Position numbers and translations under genes: made by a program
In this document: in pieces, positions 6,253-14,241 of the stretch
Position numbering within the stretch: position 1 is the stretch's first letter
Layout: each line of letters starts with the position of its first letter
Source of the DNA: Ruminococcus sp.
GTDB lineage: Bacteria; Bacillota; Clostridia; Oscillospirales; Ruminococcaceae
Length of the DNA: 33,872 nucleotides
Assembly: GCA_017463375.1 (NCBI GenBank)
Contig: JAFTPG010000010.1
Span: 1-33,872, forward strand
Direction: 5' to 3'
The notes under the pieces: generated by a model
Seen by the model: the letters and a program-made list of their open reading frames with translations, nothing else
What the model was told of the DNA's origin: nothing
The model's database searches: none

Positions 6253-7309
6253 AACTCTCATGGAACAGGGAAAAACCAACGGAAAGCTCACTACTAAAGA
6301 AATTACTGACGCTCTTGAGGAGCTTGATTTCGACGTTGACCAGCTCAATACCTTCTACGATAACTGCGAGAACCTTAATATCGAAATCGTTGAGGATATG
6401 AATGTTGACGCCGACCTCAAGATCGGTCTCGACTCCGCTATGACCGATGATCTCGAAATGGCACTCTCAACCGAGGGTATCGCTATCGACGACCCCGTAA
6501 AAATCTATCTCAAGGAAATCGGACGAGTTCCGCTTCTTACTCCCGAAGAGGAGATCGAGCTTGCTCAGAGAATGGCTACCGGCGACCCATACGCTCGTAA
6601 AAGACTCTCCGAGGCTAACCTCCGTCTCGTTGTAAGTATCGCTAAAAAGTACGTCGGCAGAGGTATGCAGTTCCTCGACCTCATTCAGGAGGGTAACCTC
6701 GGTCTGATCAAGGCTGTTGAAAAGTTCGACTACACTAAGGGCTTCAAGTTCTCTACCTACGCTACATGGTGGATCCGTCAGGCTATTACCAGAGCTATCG
6801 CCGATCAGGCGAGAACTATCAGAATTCCCGTTCATATGGTTGAAACTATCACTAAGGTGAAGAAGGTTTCAAGCCAGCTCCTCCACGAAAACGGTCACGA
6901 TCCCAGCCCCGAGGAAATCGCTGACAAGCTTGAGATGCCTGTTGATAAGGTTCGTGAAATTATGCGTATAGCTCAGGATCCCGTTTCCCTCGAGACTCCT
7001 ATCGGTGAGGAGGAGGACAGCCATCTCGGCGACTTTATCCCCGATGACGACGCTCCGGCTCCGGCTGAGGCTGCTTCACATACTCTCCTTAAAGAACAGC
7101 TTAACGAGGTTCTTGCTACTCTCACCGAGCGTGAGGCTAAGGTACTCAAGCTCAGATTCGGTCTTGAGGACGGTAAGTCCCGTACTCTTGAGGAGGTTGG
7201 TCAGCGCTTTGACGTTACAAGAGAACGTATCCGTCAGATCGAAGCTAAGGCTCTCAGAAAGCTCCGTCACCCCAGCAGAAGCAAAAAGGTTAAGGACTTC
7301 CTTGACTGA
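6227..7309 (+). CDS. rpoD: Primary sigma factor RpoD (sigma-A)
   Basis: A 360-residue housekeeping sigma-70 factor. Region 1.1 is short and acidic (1-85), as in Gram-positive sigma-A. Region 1.2 begins at [11 protein letters not shown], and region 2 contains [20 protein letters not shown] and the -10 reading helix [17 protein letters not shown]. Region 3 has RIPVHM, and region 4.2 carries the -35 helix-turn-helix [20 protein letters not shown] (about 320-339). Translation starts at ATG 6227 with AGGAGG at 6214-6219, inside the end of dnaG. It is the last gene of the dgt-dnaG-rpoD unit. The many TTGACA-17-TATAAT promoters in this window are what this factor would recognise. Confidence 0.98.
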
Positions 7310-7336
7310 TCCAAGGAAGTGTATACATAATTCAGA

Positions 7337-7369
7337 GCCGCCCAAAATCTATGGGCGGCTTTTGATTTT
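7337..7369 (+). terminator. Rho-independent terminator of the dgt-dnaG-rpoD operon
   Basis: An 8-bp perfect stem GCCGCCCA / TGGGCGGC (7337-7344 and 7352-7359) with a 7-base loop is followed by TTTTGATTTT. It lies 28 bases after the rpoD stop. Confidence 0.93.
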
Positions 7370-7431
7370 GTATCCGAATGTAGTATGTTGTAACTACTAA
7401 AACTTTATTTTTCGATTGAAAATGTATAGGT

Positions 7432-7518
7432 GTAGGGGGCGGCGTACCCTAAAGGGCATAAATCCTCGACGCCCAAATAATTAATTGGCAGCGGGACGTC
7501 GAGGACGCCGTCCCCTAC
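7432..7518. repeat. Dispersed palindromic repeat, copy 1
   Basis: A hairpin-forming repeat bounded by GTAGGGGGCGGCG and CGCCGTCCCCTAC, with arms containing CCTCGACG / CGTCGAGG around an AATAATTAATTGGCAGC loop. The left arm carries an 18-base insertion (ACCCTAAAGGGCATAAAT) absent from the second copy at 29663-29731. Both copies have the flank AAAATGTATAGGT beside the GGGGGCGG arm. No coding potential is seen. The repeat sits between the rpoD terminator and the riboswitch promoter. Confidence 0.85.
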
Positions 7519-7589
7519 AAATTGTCATTCTAAAAAGTAGAGTCGCCCCTACGGAAATCATCTTCAATTATGCATTATTTGTTTTTTAA

Positions 7590-7618
7590 TTGACTCTTTG
7601 CGGAAATTGTGGTAGAAT
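7590..7618 (+). promoter_or_regulatory. Promoter of the B12 uptake operon
   Basis: TTGACT (7590-7595), a 17-base spacer and TAGAAT (7613-7618). This near-consensus promoter would start transcription at about 7625, immediately before the cobalamin riboswitch. No other convincing promoter is visible before the gene at 8102. Confidence 0.85.
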
Positions 7619-7623
7619 ATAAG

Positions 7624-7725
7624 TGAGCAGTACAGGAGAAGTGCAGTGAGAATCTGCCGCAACAGCCATTACCGTATGTGCGTAAGCATTAAGTCGGATC
7701 GCCTGAATGCTCTCTGCTGTAAATT
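7624..7725 (+). promoter_or_regulatory. Cobalamin riboswitch
   Basis: The leader contains the conserved cobalamin-aptamer blocks in order: AGGAGAAGTGCAGTGAGAATC (like AGGGAAxxxGGTGAGAATCC), then CTGCCGCAAC (like CCGCAACTG), then AAGTCGGATCGCCTGAATGC (like AGTCAGGATACCTGCC). The ends GAGCAG (7625-7630) and CTGCTG (7714-7719) can close a P1-like stem. In known cases B12 binding lowers expression of the downstream uptake genes. I do not see a clear T-run terminator between it and the gene at 8102, so the expression platform is unresolved and may be disturbed by the two palindromic elements inserted downstream. Confidence 0.8.
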
Positions 7726-7813
7726 TTTATGCGGCAGAATCGGTATATAGTAAACAGGAGGAATCCCTGATCCCTCGCTATAACACTTTTGGGTATTTGA
7801 AGAGTGAAGCCGT

Positions 7814-7853
7814 TTAAGAAATACCGCATAAAGCTTGTGCGGTGTTGTCTTAA
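7814..7853. repeat. 40-bp near-perfect palindrome related to the ends of element A
   Basis: The left half reads TTAAGAAATACCGCATAAAG and the right half CTTGTGCGGTGTTGTCTTAA. Each half matches one terminal inverted repeat of the element at 3251-3429, as if its two ends had been joined with the interior deleted. It lies in the riboswitch leader, directly beside element B. Confidence 0.65.
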
Positions 7854-7859
7854 CTGAAT

Positions 7860-8024
7860 TAGGGTGTGTTGACACTAAACGAACAAGCGGATTTTTTAGC
7901 ACAAATTTTGCACAGACAAGGCAAAAATCCGCAGGCGTGCTGACGCACTACAAGGATTTTTAACGCAGTATGTGTGAAATTTTGCAAAAAAGACGTGTGT
8001 TTGGCTTAGTGTCAACACACCCTA
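7860..8024. mobile_element. MITE-like element B with 8-bp target duplication
   Basis: Perfect 18-bp inverted ends: TAGGGTGTGTTGACACTA (7860-7877) and its exact complement (8007-8024). They are flanked by the direct repeat AACTGAAT (7852-7859 and 8025-8032), the footprint of transposition. The 165-bp element has no coding capacity for a transposase. The ends stay partly complementary for a further 30 bases, and the centre (7923-7961) is similar to that of element A. It inserted in the leader of the B12 operon, between the riboswitch and the first Shine-Dalgarno. The parent transposase family is unknown. Confidence 0.88.
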
Positions 8025-8101
8025 AACTGAATCCAACTTCTTTTCCGATGTTATAGCTCTGATTTATTGTATCCGAAATATCGTGAAAAGGAGTTTTTCT
8101 T

Positions 8102-9073
8102 ATGAAAAAAACAGTCAAAAACACATTTATTTCGGTTCTCGGAGCTTCATTCATCGCAATGTCGGTGCCAACCGCCGTCTTTGCTGAAACCGAGCCGAAA
8201 TATATCAATGTCTCACTGAGAATTGAGGGTATCAGCGAAAATCTCTGCGAGCTTGAAGCTCAGTATCTTTGTGAGAATGAAGCTGTCTATGCTTCCGATA
8301 TTGTCAGATTTTTCGATGAGTCCGACAACAGCTTTGAGGTCAGCTGGACAGAATCCGATTACGGCAGCTATATCAGTGCGGTAAACGGAGAAAGTGAAGG
8401 AACCTTCGGCGGCTGGGACGGATGGCAATACAGAGTCAACGGTGAAGCGCCCTCAGTCGGACTTTCCGCATACGAGGTTTCCGACGGTGATGAGATCGTT
8501 GTCTATTACTCCGACGCTTACGGCGTTGGAATGCAGTTCCCGCAGGCTAGTTATTACTACAGCGACGGAACTCTGATATTTACAAGTATGGATACAGCAT
8601 ACGATGCCAACTGGAATCCTGTTGTAACTGAAAATCCTGTTGCGGATATGACTGTTGAGCTTCGCGGAGCTGAATCGTACTCTTTCAAGACCGATGAAAG
8701 CGGCTGCGTTGATCTTGAAAACGCAGGAGTTGCTCCCGGAGACTATCAGCTTTATTACGAAAAGCAGTCCGCTGAGGGAATTCCGCTTGTGCTTCGTCCG
8801 TCAGGTAAGGTCGTTCTTGAGTACGGCTACATCCTCGGCGATGTGGACAATGACGGAAGCATCAACGCTCTCGACGCTTCAATGGTGCTCACAGCTTATG
8901 CAAACACTGCTACAGGAAAGGATTCAGGACTTACTGCGGCTCAGGAGCTTGCGGCAAATGTAAACAACAGCGATTATGCCGTAAATGCTCTTGACGCTTC
9001 GGAGATCCTCTCATATTATGCATACACTGCTACAGGCGGACAGGCATCGCTGCACGAATACCTCGGCAGATGA
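8102..9073 (+). CDS. Secreted DUF4430 (transcobalamin-like) protein with C-terminal type I dockerin
   Basis: 323 residues. A signal peptide (1-28, ending AVFA) is followed by a DUF4430-like domain (about 36-140) with the motif GGWDGWQYRVNG ... VGLSAYEVSDGDEIVVYYSD. DUF4430 is the bacterial relative of the C-terminal cobalamin-contacting domain of animal transcobalamin. Then comes an extra beta-sandwich-like stretch (about 175-240). Finally a dockerin has a good calcium loop DVDNDGSINALD (from about 247) and a degenerate second loop starting NVNNSD (from 286). The two halves share ALDAS and YAxTATG. AAAAGGAG at 8086-8093 fixes the ATG. It is the first gene behind the cobalamin riboswitch and lies 20 bases before a second DUF4430 protein. 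Inferred role: an extracellular B12-binding protein docked to a cohesin on the cell or cellulosome. B12 binding is unproven. Confidence 0.85.
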   Translation: MKKTVKNTFISVLGASFIAMSVPTAVFAETEPKYINVSLRIEGISENLCELEAQYLCENEAVYASDIVRFFDESDNSFEVSWTESDYGSYISAVNGESEGTFGGWDGWQYRVNGEAPSVGLSAYEVSDGDEIVVYYSDAYGVGMQFPQASYYYSDGTLIFTSMDTAYDANWNPVVTENPVADMTVELRGAESYSFKTDESGCVDLENAGVAPGDYQLYYEKQSAEGIPLVLRPSGKVVLEYGYILGDVDNDGSINALDASMVLTAYANTATGKDSGLTAAQELAANVNNSDYAVNALDASEILSYYAYTATGGQASLHEYLGR

Positions 9074-9093
9074 TGATACGGAGATAAATTTTT

Positions 9094-11064
9094 ATGAAAA
9101 ACAGATCCATAAGATTTGTGTGCGTTATAATGACGGCAATCCTCGTTTTCTTAACGGGGATTGCCGTTACTGCGTACACTGTAAATTACGACGCATCATC
9201 GGTGAAACAGCAGATCATCAGCAGTAAGCTCAGCGAAACCGGTGCTTCCGATGAGCAGAGCTTTATAAACGGCTGGCTTACGGAAAACGCAGGCACAGGC
9301 TCGGCGGAATGGTATGCGCTTTGTCTCTCAAAGGAGAACGCTTACGATTTCTCCGCATATACTACGGCTCTCGAACCTCAGATAAACGATGCAGGACTCC
9401 GTGCAACCGAACGTCAGCGAATGGCAATAGCATATATTTCCGCAGGAGGTACGAATATTGACGTCGGAGCTTTGATCGGCGAAACATGGAACGGTCTCGG
9501 AATAATGAGCGAGATCTATGCTTTGATTCTGATTAATTCGGGGAATTTTTATTGCGAAACCGATGAGACTCTGATTCTTGAATCTCTCCTTGCAAGACAG
9601 CACGAGGACGGCGGCTGGTCGCTTAACGGCAATTACTCCGACCCTGATGTTACTGCAATGGCAGTGCAGGCTCTTTCTGCATACAGAAGCAATCCCTCCA
9701 TTCAGAGCCGAATTGACTGCGCCGTGGAGGTCCTTTCAGCTATGCAGCAGTCCGACGGCGGCTACAGAAGCTATGGTACTCCCAACGCCGAGAGCAATGC
9801 ACAGGTAATTATCGCGCTTTGTCAGCTCGGAATCGACCCTCAGAGCGACGGCAGATTTCTCAAAAACGGAAATTCACCTGTAGACGCTCTCATGTCGTAT
9901 CATACCGGTTCGGGAGGGTTTTCCCACATTTCAGGCGGAGCTGAAAACGGTATGGCTGCGGTTCAGGCTTATGAGGCATTCACAGCTATTTCGCATTCGG
10001 GCTTGTATAATCTGAACGAAAAATATGTTGACGGTGAGTTTCCGCCGCTGATCGCTGAACAGAAGCCAACAGCAGCTCCGGAGGAAGAACCGACGAAAGC
10101 TCCCGATGCAGCCGCAACAGCTCCTCCGAAAGCGACGGAGGGCAGCGAAAGCGGAAAGCCCGTTGTTACCGATAAGCCGCAGGCAAGTACTGCTCCTGCC
10201 GAGCCGTCAGCAGTGACGACAGCTTCGGTTTCAGAAAGCAGTGAGGAGCTTACGGAAATACAGCCGACCGAAGCAAGTGAAGCTGCTGAAGAGTCCTCAG
10301 AAGCTGCGGAAACTACGGCTGTATCAGCTCCGACAGCAGCTTTCACGCTGACAACAATATCCACAGTCACAAAACAAAATACCAGCAGTACTTCTCAGGA
10401 AATGAGAACGGAGACTGCCTGTACTTCCGTTTCATCTGCGGCAGTGCCTGTGGGAGCTTCTGTTAATGATGTCAGCAGCAGCGGCGGCTGGAAAATCCCT
10501 GCGTATACCGTTATAGCCGTGCTTTTTGCAGGTTCTGCAATTTATCCTGCGGCACGGAGACAGTTCTCATGGAAAAAGCTTGCGGCTTCGGGAGCAGTAT
10601 GCACGCTCTGTGCAGGTGCTGTTTTCTTCATGAACATTCAGACTCCCGAGGAATACTACAGCCGTAATCTCGGAGATATCCAGCCCGACAGCCTTACTGT
10701 TACATTTTCGGTGAGCTGTGAGAAGATCAAGGATGAAATCGACGGAGACTATATGATAGTTCCTGAAACGGAGCTTGTTCTGCTCGAGGATGATACTGTG
10801 TTCGACATTCTTGAGAGGGTTCTTGCGTATAACAAGATTCCTTTCGACTATAACGGAAGCTTTGAGACTGACATTTATATCAGAGGAATCAATAATATAT
10901 ACGAAATGGATCACGGTGAAATGTCAGGCTGGATGTATCTGGTCAACGGAGAGACTCCGAATGTTGGCTGCGGAGCTTATGCCCCTGAGGACGGAGACGT
11001 TATTGAGTGGGTATATACGCTCGAGGTCGGCAGGGATATCGGACAGGGAGGAAATATCGAATGA
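9094..11064 (+). CDS. Membrane-anchored transcobalamin-like protein: alpha/alpha-barrel plus DUF4430
   Basis: 656 residues. An N-terminal signal or anchor (7-27) precedes an alpha/alpha-barrel-like domain (about 35-310). This has prenyltransferase/squalene-cyclase style repeats, LLARQHEDGGWSLNGNYSDP and MQQSDGGYRSYG, the fold also used by the N-terminal domain of intrinsic factor and transcobalamin. A Pro/Ala/Thr/Ser/Glu-rich linker (310-460) leads to two hydrophobic helices (about 467-484 and 493-513) joined by a basic turn (AARRQFSWKK). The C-terminal DUF4430 domain (about 525-650) is a strong match: YIRGINNIYEMDHGEMSGWM, then YLVNGETPNVGCGAY and DGDVIEWVYTLEVG. If the barrel is outside, the helical hairpin returns the DUF4430 domain to the outside too. 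It overlaps the ECF T-component gene by four bases. Inferred role: surface cobalamin capture feeding the transporter. Confidence 0.85.
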   Translation: MKNRSIRFVCVIMTAILVFLTGIAVTAYTVNYDASSVKQQIISSKLSETGASDEQSFINGWLTENAGTGSAEWYALCLSKENAYDFSAYTTALEPQINDAGLRATERQRMAIAYISAGGTNIDVGALIGETWNGLGIMSEIYALILINSGNFYCETDETLILESLLARQHEDGGWSLNGNYSDPDVTAMAVQALSAYRSNPSIQSRIDCAVEVLSAMQQSDGGYRSYGTPNAESNAQVIIALCQLGIDPQSDGRFLKNGNSPVDALMSYHTGSGGFSHISGGAENGMAAVQAYEAFTAISHSGLYNLNEKYVDGEFPPLIAEQKPTAAPEEEPTKAPDAAATAPPKATEGSESGKPVVTDKPQASTAPAEPSAVTTASVSESSEELTEIQPTEASEAAEESSEAAETTAVSAPTAAFTLTTISTVTKQNTSSTSQEMRTETACTSVSSAAVPVGASVNDVSSSGGWKIPAYTVIAVLFAGSAIYPAARRQFSWKKLAASGAVCTLCAGAVFFMNIQTPEEYYSRNLGDIQPDSLTVTFSVSCEKIKDEIDGDYMIVPETELVLLEDDTVFDILERVLAYNKIPFDYNGSFETDIYIRGINNIYEMDHGEMSGWMYLVNGETPNVGCGAYAPEDGDVIEWVYTLEVGRDIGQGGNIE

Positions 11065-11939
11065 AAAGCTTTCATCCTGTGACAGTCCTGATTTTTTTCG
11101 CAGCAATGCTCACACCGCTGATGACGGTCAATAACCCTGTTTACACTGCGGTTTTGCTTGTCGGAGCAATTCTGATACTGCTTCAGGTCAGAAGCGGCAG
11201 AGGGCTTCTCCGGGAGCTTTGGGGATATCTCGTTATATTCCTCATTATGGCGGCAATGAATCCGCTGTTTGTTCACAGAGGCAGTACTCCGCTGTTTTTT
11301 CTCAACGGCAGAGCGATAACTCTTGAAGCCGTGGTATACGGCGTTTGCAGTGCTCTCAGACTGACTGCGTCAATCATCTGGTGCAGAGCGTTTTCACTTG
11401 TTATGACAAGCGAGAAGCTTTTCTGCATTACAGGAAAGCTCTCGCCGAAGATATCCGCAATGCTGACCATGACCGTGAGATTCATCCCTGATATGCTTGC
11501 TCAGGGACGGAAGATCAATGCATACAGCCGCACGTCAGGGGAATTTCCCGACGACTCCCTTTTGAGCAGATTCAGGAGGATCATGAGCGTTTTTTCGGCT
11601 CTTGTAACGTGGTCGATAGAAAGCGGAGTCCAGACAGCCGATTCTATGAAAGCAAGAGGATTCGAGCTGAAAGGACGGACAGCCTATTCACGTTTTTCAT
11701 ATCATACAGAGGACGCTGTACTGCTTGTTCTGTGTATAGCTTCCTGCGCGGCAGTTTGCACAATAAGCGGACGGCTGAATGCGGAGTTTTATCCGACGGT
11801 GAAATACAGTGCGGATACAGCAGCGCTCGGTGCGGCATCGTTTTTATCAGCGGCAGCGTATGTATTTCCAACGGCATTTGCAATGGTTATCGGACTCAAA
11901 AGAAGCAGACGCAGCCTGTTTCGGAAAGGAGAAAAATGA
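11061..11939 (+). CDS. ECF transporter T component (CbiQ/EcfT family)
   Basis: A 292-residue membrane protein with about five to six hydrophobic segments. A cytoplasmic stretch in the second half carries the EcfT coupling features: VRFIPDMLAQGRKINAYSR and an Ala-Arg-Gly motif in SMKARGFELKGR (Ala198-Gly200). These motifs fit into the grooves of the two ATPase domains. The start is ATG 11061, overlapping the preceding stop (ATGA), with GGGAGG at 11047-11052 upstream; an open extension to 11007 is out of keeping with that site. It overlaps the ATPase gene by four bases as well, so four genes here are translationally coupled. This T component appears dedicated to the local S component. Confidence 0.9.
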   Translation: MKSFHPVTVLIFFAAMLTPLMTVNNPVYTAVLLVGAILILLQVRSGRGLLRELWGYLVIFLIMAAMNPLFVHRGSTPLFFLNGRAITLEAVVYGVCSALRLTASIIWCRAFSLVMTSEKLFCITGKLSPKISAMLTMTVRFIPDMLAQGRKINAYSRTSGEFPDDSLLSRFRRIMSVFSALVTWSIESGVQTADSMKARGFELKGRTAYSRFSYHTEDAVLLVLCIASCAAVCTISGRLNAEFYPTVKYSADTAALGAASFLSAAAYVFPTAFAMVIGLKRSRRSLFRKGEK

Positions 11940-13570
11940 AGATACTTGAAGTAAAGGATCTCTCTTTCAGATATAAAAATGCAGAGCAAAATACTCTTGA
12001 CAATATCTCGTTTGAAGCTTCGGAGGGCGAACTGATTCTCGTATGCGGAGCTACGGCGTGCGGAAAAACTACGCTGCTGAAAAGTCTGAAGCCTGAGCTT
12101 GCGCCGTTCGGAGATAAAAACGGCGAGATATTCTTCTGCGGAAAAGCAATGGCAGATATTTCGGAATCCGTTTCCGCGGCTCAGATAGGGTATGTAATGC
12201 AGCGGCCTGAGAATCAGACCGTTACGGACAGCGTTCGCAGCGAGCTTGCTTTCGGCGGTGAAAGTCTCGGACTCGAGCCTGATATCATTCGCCGGAAGGT
12301 TGCTGAGACTGCCGCATATTTCGGACTGGAGCAGCTTCTCAGTCACAGAACATCGATGCTTTCGGGCGGACAGCGCCAGCTTCTGAATCTTGCGTCGGTA
12401 ATGGCAATGAATCCGAGACTTATCATCCTCGATGAGCCGACTGCACAGCTCGACCCGATAGCGGCAGGCGATTTCATCCGGACTCTTTACCGCGTCACAC
12501 GGGAGCTTGCGGTCACAGTGATCGTTGCGGAGCATCGCTTTGAGGAGCTTCTGCCGCTTGCGGACAAGGTTCTTTTTCTCGAAAACGGAAAGGTGAGAGC
12601 GTTCGACACGCCCGAAAATTCGGCGGAGATTCTTGCTCAGAGCGCAAATGTAAGCCCTTCCCTGCCGTCAGGACTCAGGCTTCACAGTCATTTTCACAGG
12701 CTGAACGGCAGAAAAGCACCGCTTACGCTCGGCGAGAGCAGAGCTATGCTTGCGGAGTGCTTCAAATCCGATGTAAAATCCTTGGAGCAGACTGCAAAAG
12801 CTCCCGGCAATGAAGAAGCGATCCGGCTGAAAAACGTATTTTTCACCTATGACGGCAGCTCGCCCGACGTGGTGTGCGGAGCTTCGCTGACCGTGCAAAA
12901 GGGTGAGGTTTTCTCGCTTATCGGCAGCAACGGAAGCGGAAAAAGCACTCTTCTTTCGCTGATGTCGGGAATCGAAAAGCCATACAGGGGAGCCGTTGAG
13001 ATTTTCAGCAAGTCTCTGAAAAAATACAGAGGCAGCGAGCTGTACTGCGGACTTCTCGGGCTTCTTCCTCAGGATGTGCAAAGCGCGTTCCTGAGAGACA
13101 GCGTCGGGGAAGAGCTTCAATTCACTGAGGATAAATCGGTTTACGATTTTACTCCCTTTTATGAAATGCACCCCTACGACCTCAGCGGCGGTCAGCAGCA
13201 GCTTCTGGGAATAAAAAAGATGCTGATGAACGAGCCGAAAATCGTTCTCATGGACGAGCCTACAAAGGGACTGGACGGAAGCTGGCGTGATGTGATCGCA
13301 GAAATCATTCTGAGTCTCCGTGAAAAGGGATTGACCGTATTCATCGTCACTCACGATATGGAGCTTGCAGCTCAGGTTTCCGACCGCTGCGGAATCTTTT
13401 TCGACGGAACTGTCTCGGCAGCCGTCACTCCGCAGGAAATTCTCTCCGACAGCATTTTCTATACCACAAGCGCAGTAAAGACCTCACGGGGAATTTACAG
13501 CGGAGTCTGCACAACGGCTCAGCTGCTGGAAATCTGCACGAAGAACGGCTTAAAGGAGGAGTTCAGATGA
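11936..13570 (+). CDS. ECF transporter energy-coupling ATPase, two ABC domains fused
   Basis: 544 residues with two complete ABC ATPase domains. Domain 1: Walker A GATACGKT (38-45), signature LSGGQRQ, Walker B LIILDEP, and a His in VIVAEH. Domain 2: Walker A GSNGSGKST (330-338), signature LSGGQQQ, Walker B IVLMDEP, and a His in IVTHD. The fusion replaces the separate EcfA1 and EcfA2 subunits. The first Walker A has TAC where SGC/NGS/NGA is usual, though Gly, Lys and Thr are kept. The ATG at 11936 overlaps the preceding stop and has AAAGGAG just upstream; the frame is open back to 11609 but that lies inside the T-component gene. It powers uptake of the substrate bound by the S component at 13567. 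Confidence 0.92.
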   Translation: MKILEVKDLSFRYKNAEQNTLDNISFEASEGELILVCGATACGKTTLLKSLKPELAPFGDKNGEIFFCGKAMADISESVSAAQIGYVMQRPENQTVTDSVRSELAFGGESLGLEPDIIRRKVAETAAYFGLEQLLSHRTSMLSGGQRQLLNLASVMAMNPRLIILDEPTAQLDPIAAGDFIRTLYRVTRELAVTVIVAEHRFEELLPLADKVLFLENGKVRAFDTPENSAEILAQSANVSPSLPSGLRLHSHFHRLNGRKAPLTLGESRAMLAECFKSDVKSLEQTAKAPGNEEAIRLKNVFFTYDGSSPDVVCGASLTVQKGEVFSLIGSNGSGKSTLLSLMSGIEKPYRGAVEIFSKSLKKYRGSELYCGLLGLLPQDVQSAFLRDSVGEELQFTEDKSVYDFTPFYEMHPYDLSGGQQQLLGIKKMLMNEPKIVLMDEPTKGLDGSWRDVIAEIILSLREKGLTVFIVTHDMELAAQVSDRCGIFFDGTVSAAVTPQEILSDSIFYTTSAVKTSRGIYSGVCTTAQLLEICTKNGLKEEFR

Positions 13571-14241
13571 ATTCGCTGATGAAAAAAGCGGTTCTGATCG
13601 CCTTGTCTGCCGTACTGGTTATACTCGGAGCTGTTATGCTCGGCGGAAAGCACTACACGTTAGTATCTGTCCTGATAGCGGCGGTCTCATGCATAGGATT
13701 TGCTTATGCATTCGAGCGCAGGGAGCTTACCTCACGATATGCGGTGCTTGTGGCGGTAATGACGGCTCTTTCGATCGCAGGAAGATTCATTTTTGCTCCG
13801 GTTCCTGCATTCAAGCCTGTGACGGCACTTGTGATCCTCAGCGGAGTATATCTCTCGGCGGAGGGAGGCTTCCTGACGGGAGCCCTGACGGCTCTTATAT
13901 CGAATATGTACTTCGGTCACGGAGCATGGACTCCGTTTCAGATGCTTGCATGGGGGCTGATCGGTCTTACAGCCGGAGTCCTCTCAAATCAGCTGAAAAA
14001 AAACAGACCCCTGCTTCTCCTTTTCGGAGCAATTGCAGGAGCCATGTATTCGTTTGTTATGGATATATGGACGGTCGTATGGTACAGCGGAAGTCCTGAA
14101 ACCGGACTTTATAAAGCTGCAATACTGTCAGCGATTCCGTTCACGATCATATATGCTGTTTCAAACGTGGTATTTCTGTTTCTTTTCGCCAAGAGCTTCG
14201 GACGAAAGCTCAGCCGTGCAGTCACTCTTATTGAGAGATGA
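13567..14241 (+). CDS. ECF transporter S component, predicted cobalamin-specific
   Basis: A 224-residue integral membrane protein with about six hydrophobic helices, the size and shape of ECF substrate-binding subunits. The stretch GRFIFAPVPAFKPVTALVIL, followed by GGFLTGALTALISNMYFGHG and WTPFQMLAWG, resembles the ECF S family that includes the vitamin B12 subunit CbrT. This recognition is from memory, not an alignment. The start overlaps the ATPase stop (ATGA), with AGGAGG at 13556-13561 as its ribosome site. The upstream cobalamin riboswitch and two transcobalamin-like proteins support B12 or a cobinamide-type precursor as substrate. The 3' end overlaps the convergent hydrolase gene by 14 bases and no terminator is visible. 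Confidence 0.8.
   Translation: MNSLMKKAVLIALSAVLVILGAVMLGGKHYTLVSVLIAAVSCIGFAYAFERRELTSRYAVLVAVMTALSIAGRFIFAPVPAFKPVTALVILSGVYLSAEGGFLTGALTALISNMYFGHGAWTPFQMLAWGLIGLTAGVLSNQLKKNRPLLLLFGAIAGAMYSFVMDIWTVVWYSGSPETGLYKAAILSAIPFTIIYAVSNVVFLFLFAKSFGRKLSRAVTLIER

Follow-up and report, generated by a model that had tools for sequence, protein, structure and literature searches.

Based on sequence analysis, a B12-repressed corrinoid uptake operon is the likely content of part of the window studied here, a 33,872-nucleotide stretch of DNA from Ruminococcus sp.; surface DUF4430 proteins, one a clamp and one a dockerin-held capture protein, would feed an ECF importer of the CbrT kind. Five linked plus-strand open reading frames at 8102-14241 encode two exported DUF4430 proteins, followed by ECF T, a fused double ATPase (A-A) and S. 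The preliminary description of this DNA had proposed a surface B12 trap that hands its ligand to a dedicated ECF importer, which is probably right. The features are as follows.

7590..7618, plus strand: promoter-like site TTGACT-17-TAGAAT, with TG ahead of the second hexamer, just 5' of the aptamer (consensus scan, 10/12)
7609..7744, plus strand: cobalamin (AdoCbl-type) riboswitch aptamer (RF01482, Rfam clan CL00101; model R1 at 7605-7710)
8102..9073, plus strand: gene 1, exported 323 aa protein with DUF4430 and dockerin (ORF, Pfam, hydrophobic N-terminus)
8333..8512, plus strand: DUF4430 domain of gene 1 (PF14478, E=4.2e-14 to 1.5e-13)
8834..9007, plus strand: dockerin of gene 1 (PF00404, above the Pfam cut-off; 8ajy_B)
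9094..11064, plus strand: gene 2, predicted membrane-tethered 656 aa toroid and DUF4430 protein (ORF, Pfam)
9175..10008, plus strand: alpha/alpha-toroid region of gene 2, residues 28-305 (Prenyltrans and SQHop matches under Pfam cut-offs)
10495..10629, plus strand: predicted membrane hairpin of gene 2, two hydrophobic segments with a basic loop, residues 468-512 (hydropathy)
10789..11019, plus strand: DUF4430 domain of gene 2 (PF14478, E=2.9e-21 to 2.4e-20)
11061..11939, plus strand: ECF T, EcfT/CbiQ-like (PF02361 CbiQ, 6.5e-7)
11936..13570, plus strand: fused double ECF ATPase, 544 aa (PF00005 in two stretches; TIGR04520 at 4.4e-86, under that model's cut-off)
13567..14241, plus strand: ECF S component, CbrT-like, 224 aa (ECF S families in Pfam; 6fnp_A, 5.7e-9)

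Every element of the gene order described earlier, from the two exported DUF4430 proteins to the T, fused double ATPase and S genes with their four-base overlaps, was found by open reading frames and Pfam. The overlaps lie at 11061-11064, 11936-11939 and 13567-13570, with the ATG start codons of T (11061) and A-A (11936) chosen by us within longer open frames. The nearest solved relative of S is 6fnp_A of ECF-CbrT, a 182 aa chain that was assigned to CbrT from its length and match; a profile of 23 sequences reached it at 5.5e-16 and the next chain at 5.2e-5. The make-up of an ECF-CbrT-type transporter is complete, with T, two ATPase domains and S all present and linked, and the proximity of S to CbrT among solved chains bears out the importer unit proposed before. 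Collectively, the T, A-A and S proteins would assemble into a dedicated CbrT-type ECF importer, with transport itself predicted from these matches. Although T matches CbiQ, a cobalt importer was discounted in view of the CbrT-like S and of the cobalamin riboswitch as control element.

The cobalamin-aptamer pattern that had been noticed ahead of the operon stands, by a route other than the Rfam gathering score. At gathering thresholds, Rfam yielded zero matches anywhere in the window, and RF00174 did not detect the riboswitch locus. In contrast, the AdoCbl model RF01482 matched at 34.6 bits against a gathering score of 50 (E=1.9e-4 in a local scan), and in a whole-genome scan this was the sole AdoCbl match up to E=10 (E=1.1e-4). 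Moreover, the covariance model R1, built from the riboswitches of seven relatives with the window excluded, scored 61.7 bits (E=7.2e-15 over 668 kb, E-values being rough). Absence of a riboswitch, as read from the gathering scan alone, was overturned by these two scores. The lack of a covariance match, named in the preliminary description as refuting, holds at the Rfam gathering score, but neither for the sub-threshold match nor for R1. The window has a conserved aptamer core in common with the riboswitches that precede this operon in relatives (alignment A7, R1), and the fold of 7622-7860 has z=-2.94, with equally stable shuffles in 2 of 200. The promoter-like site is weak alone because 7300-8110 holds 2 such sites versus 1.9 in shuffles. 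Collectively, the results support B12 control of the operon. By homology, low adenosylcobalamin would lead the riboswitch to permit expression of the operon genes.

To place the operon among relatives, genome contigs were scanned. Searching with the 656 aa protein alone yielded 39 pattern matches but zero relatives, while alignment A1 gave at least 527 relatives, the best 80 of which, chosen by likeness to the 656 aa protein, form the loci considered here; L085/L040 and L130/L039 look like duplicates. Alignment A3 holds the window and 65 of the 80 loci (of the remainder, 10 were unlisted and 5 were removed because of in-frame stops), A4 holds 32 gene 2 and 4 gene 1 sequences, and A5 and A9 hold 33 and 23 sequences, respectively. 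At E<=0.01, R1 found a riboswitch in 57 of the 80 loci, all on the operon strand, and in 52 of 75 once five seeds or seed duplicates were removed, as the seven R1 seeds include L076, L088 and L103 from these loci, and the contigs of seeds L035 and L042 recur as L078 and L153. At this threshold, 23 of the 80 loci lacked the riboswitch, some of them with incomplete upstream sequence.

Linkage was surveyed in 41 sources, comprising the window and 40 regions drawn from 39 of 48 further matching genomes, the other nine and some second matches lying outside the set. The domain models applied to these regions, to the relative loci and to the 29 loci mentioned below derive from the window and its relatives; the one for the ATPase picks up other ABC ATPases as well. 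DUF4430 is present in 34 of the 41 sources, accompanied by ECF T in 27, by S only in two and by neither in five. Rfam models placed a cobalamin riboswitch on the same strand in 20 of these 34 (three below the gathering score), and R1 recovers 13 of the 20; the other 14 have no Rfam-called riboswitch. For the seven toroid sources lacking DUF4430, T, S or a riboswitch was found in none. The toroid precedes DUF4430 within one ORF in 12 of the 41 sources, and the two occur as separate neighbouring ORFs in 16. Furthermore, DUF4430 was found phylum-wide in 121 of 398 sampled genomes, and ECF T or S lies within about 1.5 kb in 24 of the 29 best-match loci of that search.

Gene 2 had been described as carrying both transcobalamin domains, which is supported for the C-terminal DUF4430 but not for the N-terminal alpha domain. 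Residues 334-406 of human transcobalamin match PF14478 at 2.7e-5, which assigns the C-terminal domain of transcobalamin to the DUF4430 family and agrees with the earlier statement that the two are related. Profile-profile comparison of DUF4430 with this domain gave E=3.6e-4 and a probability of 37% over 97 columns, and a DUF4430 profile searched against PDB sequences did not find transcobalamin. For the alpha domain, PF01122 (Cobalamin_bind) had no match in the window protein, was not among the 25 families listed for the 66 aligned proteins, and was above cut-off in 0 of 40 genomes, with five weak matches, the strongest away from the operon. Profile-profile probabilities were 1% for the toroid against the alpha domain and 1.9% for the full-length comparison, and global and forced-local profile alignments of the toroid with transcobalamin gave no meaningful full-length register. 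The best solved relatives of the toroid by sequence are squalene cyclases (3.9e-14, profile of 33 sequences).

By eye, the invariant D185-x-T187-A-M189 of the window protein resembles D176-T-A-A-M180 of transcobalamin, in a register that comes from no alignment program and is a lead only. The membrane hairpin between the domains of gene 2 was overlooked in the preliminary description; the hydrophobic segments there number two in 65 of the 66 aligned proteins and three in one. The protein also matches the SCO2321 family membrane protein (NCBIfam NF053823) at 3.2e-10, with its best stretch in the toroid region, but at only 39.5 bits versus a cut-off of 300, and is not a member by that model.

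The likeness of the toroid to squalene cyclases speaks for a quite unlikely alternative, namely that the ECF operon is regulated by B12 but its DUF4430 and toroid proteins, instead of binding B12, act as scaffolds or as binders of surface polymers or of the ECF complex. The long Ser/Thr-rich linker and the dockerin suggest such display roles, and an E. coli mutant can grow in a B12-dependent manner on ECF-CbrT expressed as CbrT plus the ECF module (PMC5997447). In the published description of ECF transporters, it is S that binds the substrate (PMC5997447), so the known mechanism does not call for a further binding protein. However, DUF4430 goes together with ECF T or S and with cobalamin riboswitches, and the same domain is found in human transcobalamin, both of which speak against this alternative.

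The C-terminal dockerin of gene 1 was likewise overlooked before. Its nearest solved relative is the ScaH dockerin 8ajy_B (E=1e-11). Among proteins in the gene 1 position of 76 relative loci, which were chosen by position and may include a few wrong frames, the C-terminus is hydrophobic in 72, often of sorting type, only 5 are recognized as DUF4430, and none has a dockerin, which in this position belongs to the window only. Identity to the window gene 1 protein is 18-35% in an 11-relative alignment. A search of 396 genomes for further DUF4430-dockerin fusions scored five candidates in dockerin-rich genomes; among the matches listed, that of the window is the only one to cover both domains, and other fusions may exist. 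Outside the gene 1 position, dockerin-like motifs lie close to the operon in L038 and L143, and dockerin-model matches occur elsewhere in L084 and L087.

Since the genome has a scaffoldin cluster that includes an anchored cohesin protein (325 aa, SPKTG-ending), we infer that the dockerin most likely holds the gene 1 protein on this cell-surface cohesin protein of the cellulosome. Both dockerin repeats of gene 1 carry an N[A/S]LDAS motif, also found in the C-terminal repeats of a 2331 aa scaffoldin and a 763 aa protein, where the repeats follow a CttA-type X-module domain (PF18244). The X-module-dockerin type of R. flavefaciens is described as binding surface ScaE (PMC5301203), and from the sequence class shared with X-module dockerins, a ScaE-type surface cohesin is the predicted partner. 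It is rather unlikely that the dockerin enters another cohesin and that the gene 1 protein rides on an extended cellulosome. The genome offers 12 cohesin matches, and the ScaH cohesin is also bound by group-2 and some group-4 dockerins of R. flavefaciens (PMC5301203), whereas the motif shared with X-module dockerins, the ScaE-binding type in that species, points to the surface cohesin.

In the proposed mechanism, hydropathy would place the 656 aa protein in the cytoplasmic membrane via its two-helix hairpin, with the toroid and DUF4430 both outside. These two domains may close on a corrinoid in the manner of the alpha and beta domains of transcobalamin, and the protein would then pass it to the S component. 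The 323 aa DUF4430 protein may act as an outer capture or relay protein, its dockerin replacing the hydrophobic anchor of relatives and fixing it to the surface cohesin of the cellulosome. The imported cargo would serve a B12-dependent methionine synthase, the gene of which is present in the genome; its MetH domains are homocysteine methyltransferase, pterin-binding and two B12-binding domains. A second B12-binding match (C44) was rejected as a B12 enzyme, the protein being IMP dehydrogenase. The cargo might also be another corrinoid or precursor (cobinamide, other cobamides) instead of B12 itself, an improbable but credible variant, as many cobamides are present in rumen-type habitats. Cobinamide is also transported by ECF-CbrT (PMC5997447). 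With B12 as the cargo, we tentatively suggest that in Bacillota a transcobalamin-like two-domain clamp outside the membrane catches B12 for an ECF importer, that here a dockerin plugs the first capture protein into the surface cohesin of the cellulosome, and that the bacterial pair is possibly an older form of the vertebrate carrier architecture; as a whole, this picture is possible rather than probable.

Guts and rumens are habitats with competition for B12, and the gut is a plausible setting for this operon. B12 capture in Gram-positives is less known than the BtuG-type proteins of Bacteroidetes. DUF4430 is widespread, lies mostly beside ECF genes in the loci examined and is a domain common with human B12 carriers, so the capture step is open to direct tests. 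If true, the dockerin variant would add vitamin scavenging to the fibre digestion of cellulosomes, and the operon is relevant to the question of whether ECF transporters ever rely on external binding proteins.

A description of this operon was not found in open-licence literature by title or start of abstract, subscription papers lying outside that scope; in the available part of PMC4300822, B12 is mentioned only in growth medium. ECF-CbrT of Lactobacillus delbrueckii (PDB 6FNP, PMC5997447) has a relative of S, two ATPase domains and EcfT. In that system, cbrT sits in nrdJ-cbrS-cbrT-pduO and shares the ECF module with FolT2 (PMC5997447), whereas in the window a single operon combines T, fused A-A and S with a riboswitch and two DUF4430 proteins. 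Similar to the ScaH and CttA group-4 dockerin proteins of R. flavefaciens (PMC5301203), the gene 1 dockerin is nearest the ScaH dockerin among solved chains, and the genome also has a scaffoldin cluster; in contrast, the dockerin here carries DUF4430 as its cargo and is encoded under B12 control. Transcobalamin, intrinsic factor and haptocorrin are also exported and have an N-terminal helical domain followed by DUF4430, whereas the window protein is without PF01122, belongs to a bacterial operon and has a long linker with a membrane hairpin between its domains. Finally, the DUF4430 protein LGG_02295/LRHMDP2_2713 of Lacticaseibacillus rhamnosus is annotated as "Additional lipoprotein component of putative cobalamin ECF transporter" and its gene adjoins that of the adenosylcobalamin-dependent reductase RtpR (PMC9963975). 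It is alike in that a DUF4430 protein is annotated as a cobalamin ECF accessory; in contrast, it is annotated as a lipoprotein, and its entry in the available part of that source mentions no toroid, dockerin or riboswitch. The tie of DUF4430 to a putative cobalamin ECF transporter is thus previously annotated (PMC9963975), and the window operon adds a variant.

The five-gene order of the preliminary description was borne out, together with four-base overlaps between the gene for the 656 aa protein and T, between T and A, and between A and S. The features concerned are as follows.

7590–7618: promoter-like site, weak on its own
7609–7744: cobalamin riboswitch match
7859–8025: leader element between the riboswitch and gene 1
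8102–9073: gene 1, exported DUF4430 and dockerin protein, 323 aa
9094–11064: toroid and DUF4430 protein, 656 aa
11061–11939: ECF transporter gene T
11936–13570: fused double ATPase gene A
13567–14241: ECF S component gene

DUF4430, claimed for both exported proteins, gave a Pfam match in each; T matches CbiQ, A contains two ABC stretches, and S matches ECF S families. The window's own genome, approximately 91% complete as assembled, has two DUF4430 matches, both inside the window.

Full or partial matches to the 656 aa protein occur in 49 of 148 genomes of the same family, the window's own included. Across 41 sources (the window and 40 regions from 39 of the 48 other matching genomes), the toroid is followed by DUF4430 in a single open reading frame in 12 and in separate adjacent frames in 16; a single source has DUF4430 ahead of the toroid within one frame and lacks a separate copy. 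In five sources DUF4430 occurs but no toroid was detected, and in seven the toroid occurs alone. This recurrent fusion or adjacency in many genomes suggests that the toroid and DUF4430 act jointly. For the 34 DUF4430 sources, T lies in the region in 27, S only in two, and neither in five, and a same-strand cobalamin riboswitch was called with Rfam models in 20, among which the window, L035, and L044 fall below gathering scores. T, S, and the riboswitch were found in none of the seven toroid-only sources. Additionally, T, A, and S are all present in 71 of the 80 loci most similar to the 656 aa protein among at least 527 relatives. Phylum-wide, DUF4430 occurs in 121 of 398 sampled genomes; at 29 loci of the best matches, T or S lies within ~1.5 kb in 24 and a toroid in 16. 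In the split operons of L046, L050, L058, and L063, the toroid is inside very large open frames of 1246–2003 aa.

Hydrophobic segments separate the toroid from DUF4430 in all 66 aligned proteins (two in 65, three in one). In the window's 656 aa protein they flank a basic loop, so that both domains would lie outside, attached to the membrane by a predicted hairpin. Cys542 and Cys626 of this protein, in or beside DUF4430, are conserved in 66 and 62 of the 66 proteins, respectively.

At the gene 1 position, an open reading frame end adjoins the toroid start in 76 of the 80 loci. Pattern tests located a hydrophobic stretch near the C-terminus in 72 of these 76, with a PxTG-type motif in 44 of the 72, and a dockerin motif in none of the 76. 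Five of the 76 proteins were recognized as DUF4430, one of ten scanned passed the Pfam DUF4430 cut-off, and 11 aligned with the window protein at 18–35% identity with common motifs across the DUF4430 region. The few recognitions and low identity indicate that gene 1 represents a diverse family, the remaining relatives being read as DUF4430-like by alignment only.

The closest solved chain to the C-terminal dockerin of the window's gene 1 is the ScaH dockerin (1e-11). Across the same genome there are 12 cohesin matches and, at E ≤ 0.01, 74 matches to dockerins, of which several overlap or are partial. On its contig C64 are genes for three proteins, of 2331, 763, and 325 aa; the largest is a scaffoldin in which seven cohesin matches were found. 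PF18244 (Pfam name CttA_N), in our reading the CttA X-module domain, precedes the C-terminal repeats of the scaffoldin (4.4e-15) and of the 763 aa protein (2.6e-13). The dockerin repeats of both were recognized by motif pattern, the Pfam dockerin model reaching only E = 1.1. The 325 aa protein ends with SPKTG, a hydrophobic stretch, and RKKED; its sorting motif scores under the Gram_pos_anchor cut-off. Its cohesin was matched in the genome search (2.1e-6) and in the isolated stretch (1.3e-6), and was not found in a scan of the whole Thr-rich protein. From order and domains, the three proteins may be read as ScaB-, CttA-, and ScaE-like. The SPKTG-ending cohesin protein is identical on G000:C32:11000-13833 and C64, probably an assembly overlap.

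As reported for R. flavefaciens, the surface cohesin ScaE is bound by group-4 dockerins, including those of ScaH, CttA, and ScaB (PMC5301203). The window dockerin and both X-module proteins share the [L/I/V]DAS type. A pattern search of the stretches that contain the other dockerin matches gave 48 distinct repeat motifs, of which 25 are of this type. Anchoring of the gene 1 product would thus be transferred to a partner protein. Among nine other LDAS-type dockerin proteins scanned, three have leucine-rich repeats and one has a weak GDSL lipase match, so this dockerin class is not B12-specific. NxLDAS dockerin proteins form a large class in the genome (C16, C23, C28, C51, C74, C98, C119, and other contigs), several without another Pfam match and some with leucine-rich repeats.

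The proposed cobalamin riboswitch was supported by covariance models, with 34.6 bits for the Rfam AdoCbl model and 61.7 bits for a model from relatives, but not at the Rfam gathering score, at which no riboswitch was reported. The AdoCbl match is the only one in the genome (E = 1.1e-4), and RF00174 gave no match at this site. The relatives' model was built from seven relatives with the window left out (E = 7.2e-15 over 41 sources, E-values being rough), and alignment shows the invariant core of the window aptamer to be common to riboswitches of relatives. The predicted fold of 7622–7860 is stabler than most shuffles (z = −2.94; two of 200 equally stable). Matches at E ≤ 0.01 occur in 57 of the 80 loci, all on the operon strand, each locus having one that begins 174–2625 bases upstream of the first model-recognized gene; the other 23 have none at this threshold. 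L091, L129, L144, and L145 have two cobalamin riboswitches, one before gene 1 and the second between the toroid gene and T.

The 167-base leader element has 49-base inverted repeat ends (76% complementary), starts TTAGGGTGTGTTGACAC, and by eye is apparently flanked on both sides by the short direct repeat ACTGAA; its form resembles a MITE-type insertion. An identical end was found at only four of 292 loci, namely those spanning the element itself. More palindromic GC-rich sequence, noted by eye and partly by a repeat finder, lies between rpoD and the operon (7430–7552). Within the aptamer core, 12 bases at 7650–7661 are 92% complementary to 7730–7741 at the 3′ end of the match, which may reflect a switch element or chance alone. 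Downstream of the aptamer, the + strand showed no terminator-like site as far as 8110.

The closest solved chain to the S component is 6fnp_A (5.7e-9); with the S family profile, 6fnp_A (5.5e-16) is followed by 4hzu_S (5.2e-5), the other seven chains listed having E ≥ 0.7. 6FNP is ECF-CbrT, for which cobalamin and cobinamide transport was demonstrated (PMC5997447). We infer from this homology a cobalamin-type substrate for the ECF unit. The search for B12 enzymes through PF02310 revealed a gene for a B12-dependent methionine synthase in the same genome. Broken off at a contig end, it encodes homocysteine methyltransferase and pterin-binding domains as well as both B12-binding domains.

A Lacticaseibacillus rhamnosus DUF4430 protein carries the annotation 'Additional lipoprotein component of putative cobalamin ECF transporter'; the neighbouring gene encodes an adenosylcobalamin-dependent reductase (PMC9963975). 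DUF4430 has already been annotated as a cobalamin ECF accessory; among the titles and abstract openings listed in searches of open-licence literature, none gave an account of the toroid–DUF4430 pair, its riboswitch, or a dockerin version. DUF4430 has also been reported in fish transcobalamin-like proteins, in a paper that describes the two-domain clamp as well (PMC4350170).

Both transcobalamin domains had been claimed for the 656 aa protein, and the C-terminal one stood, but the N-terminal one found no support in sequence. In human transcobalamin, PF01122 matches residues 1–305 and DUF4430 matches 334–406 (2.7e-5), so the C-terminal kinship is genuine. When bacterial DUF4430 domains were compared with transcobalamins by profile, 97 columns aligned at 37% probability, and the full-length alignment gave 1.9%; the DUF4430 profile did not find transcobalamin in the PDB. 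PF01122 does not match the window's 656 aa protein, is absent from the 25 families listed for the 66 proteins, and exceeds its cut-off in none of 40 genomes, where one of five weak matches is on a related toroid (0.016) and the strongest (0.0017) is elsewhere. Profile comparison of the toroid with the transcobalamin alpha domain gave 1% probability, and its nearest solved relatives are squalene cyclases (3.9e-14). For these reasons, we did not admit the 656 aa protein to the transcobalamin family. A putative transcobalamin-like mode of working is nevertheless the most likely reading.
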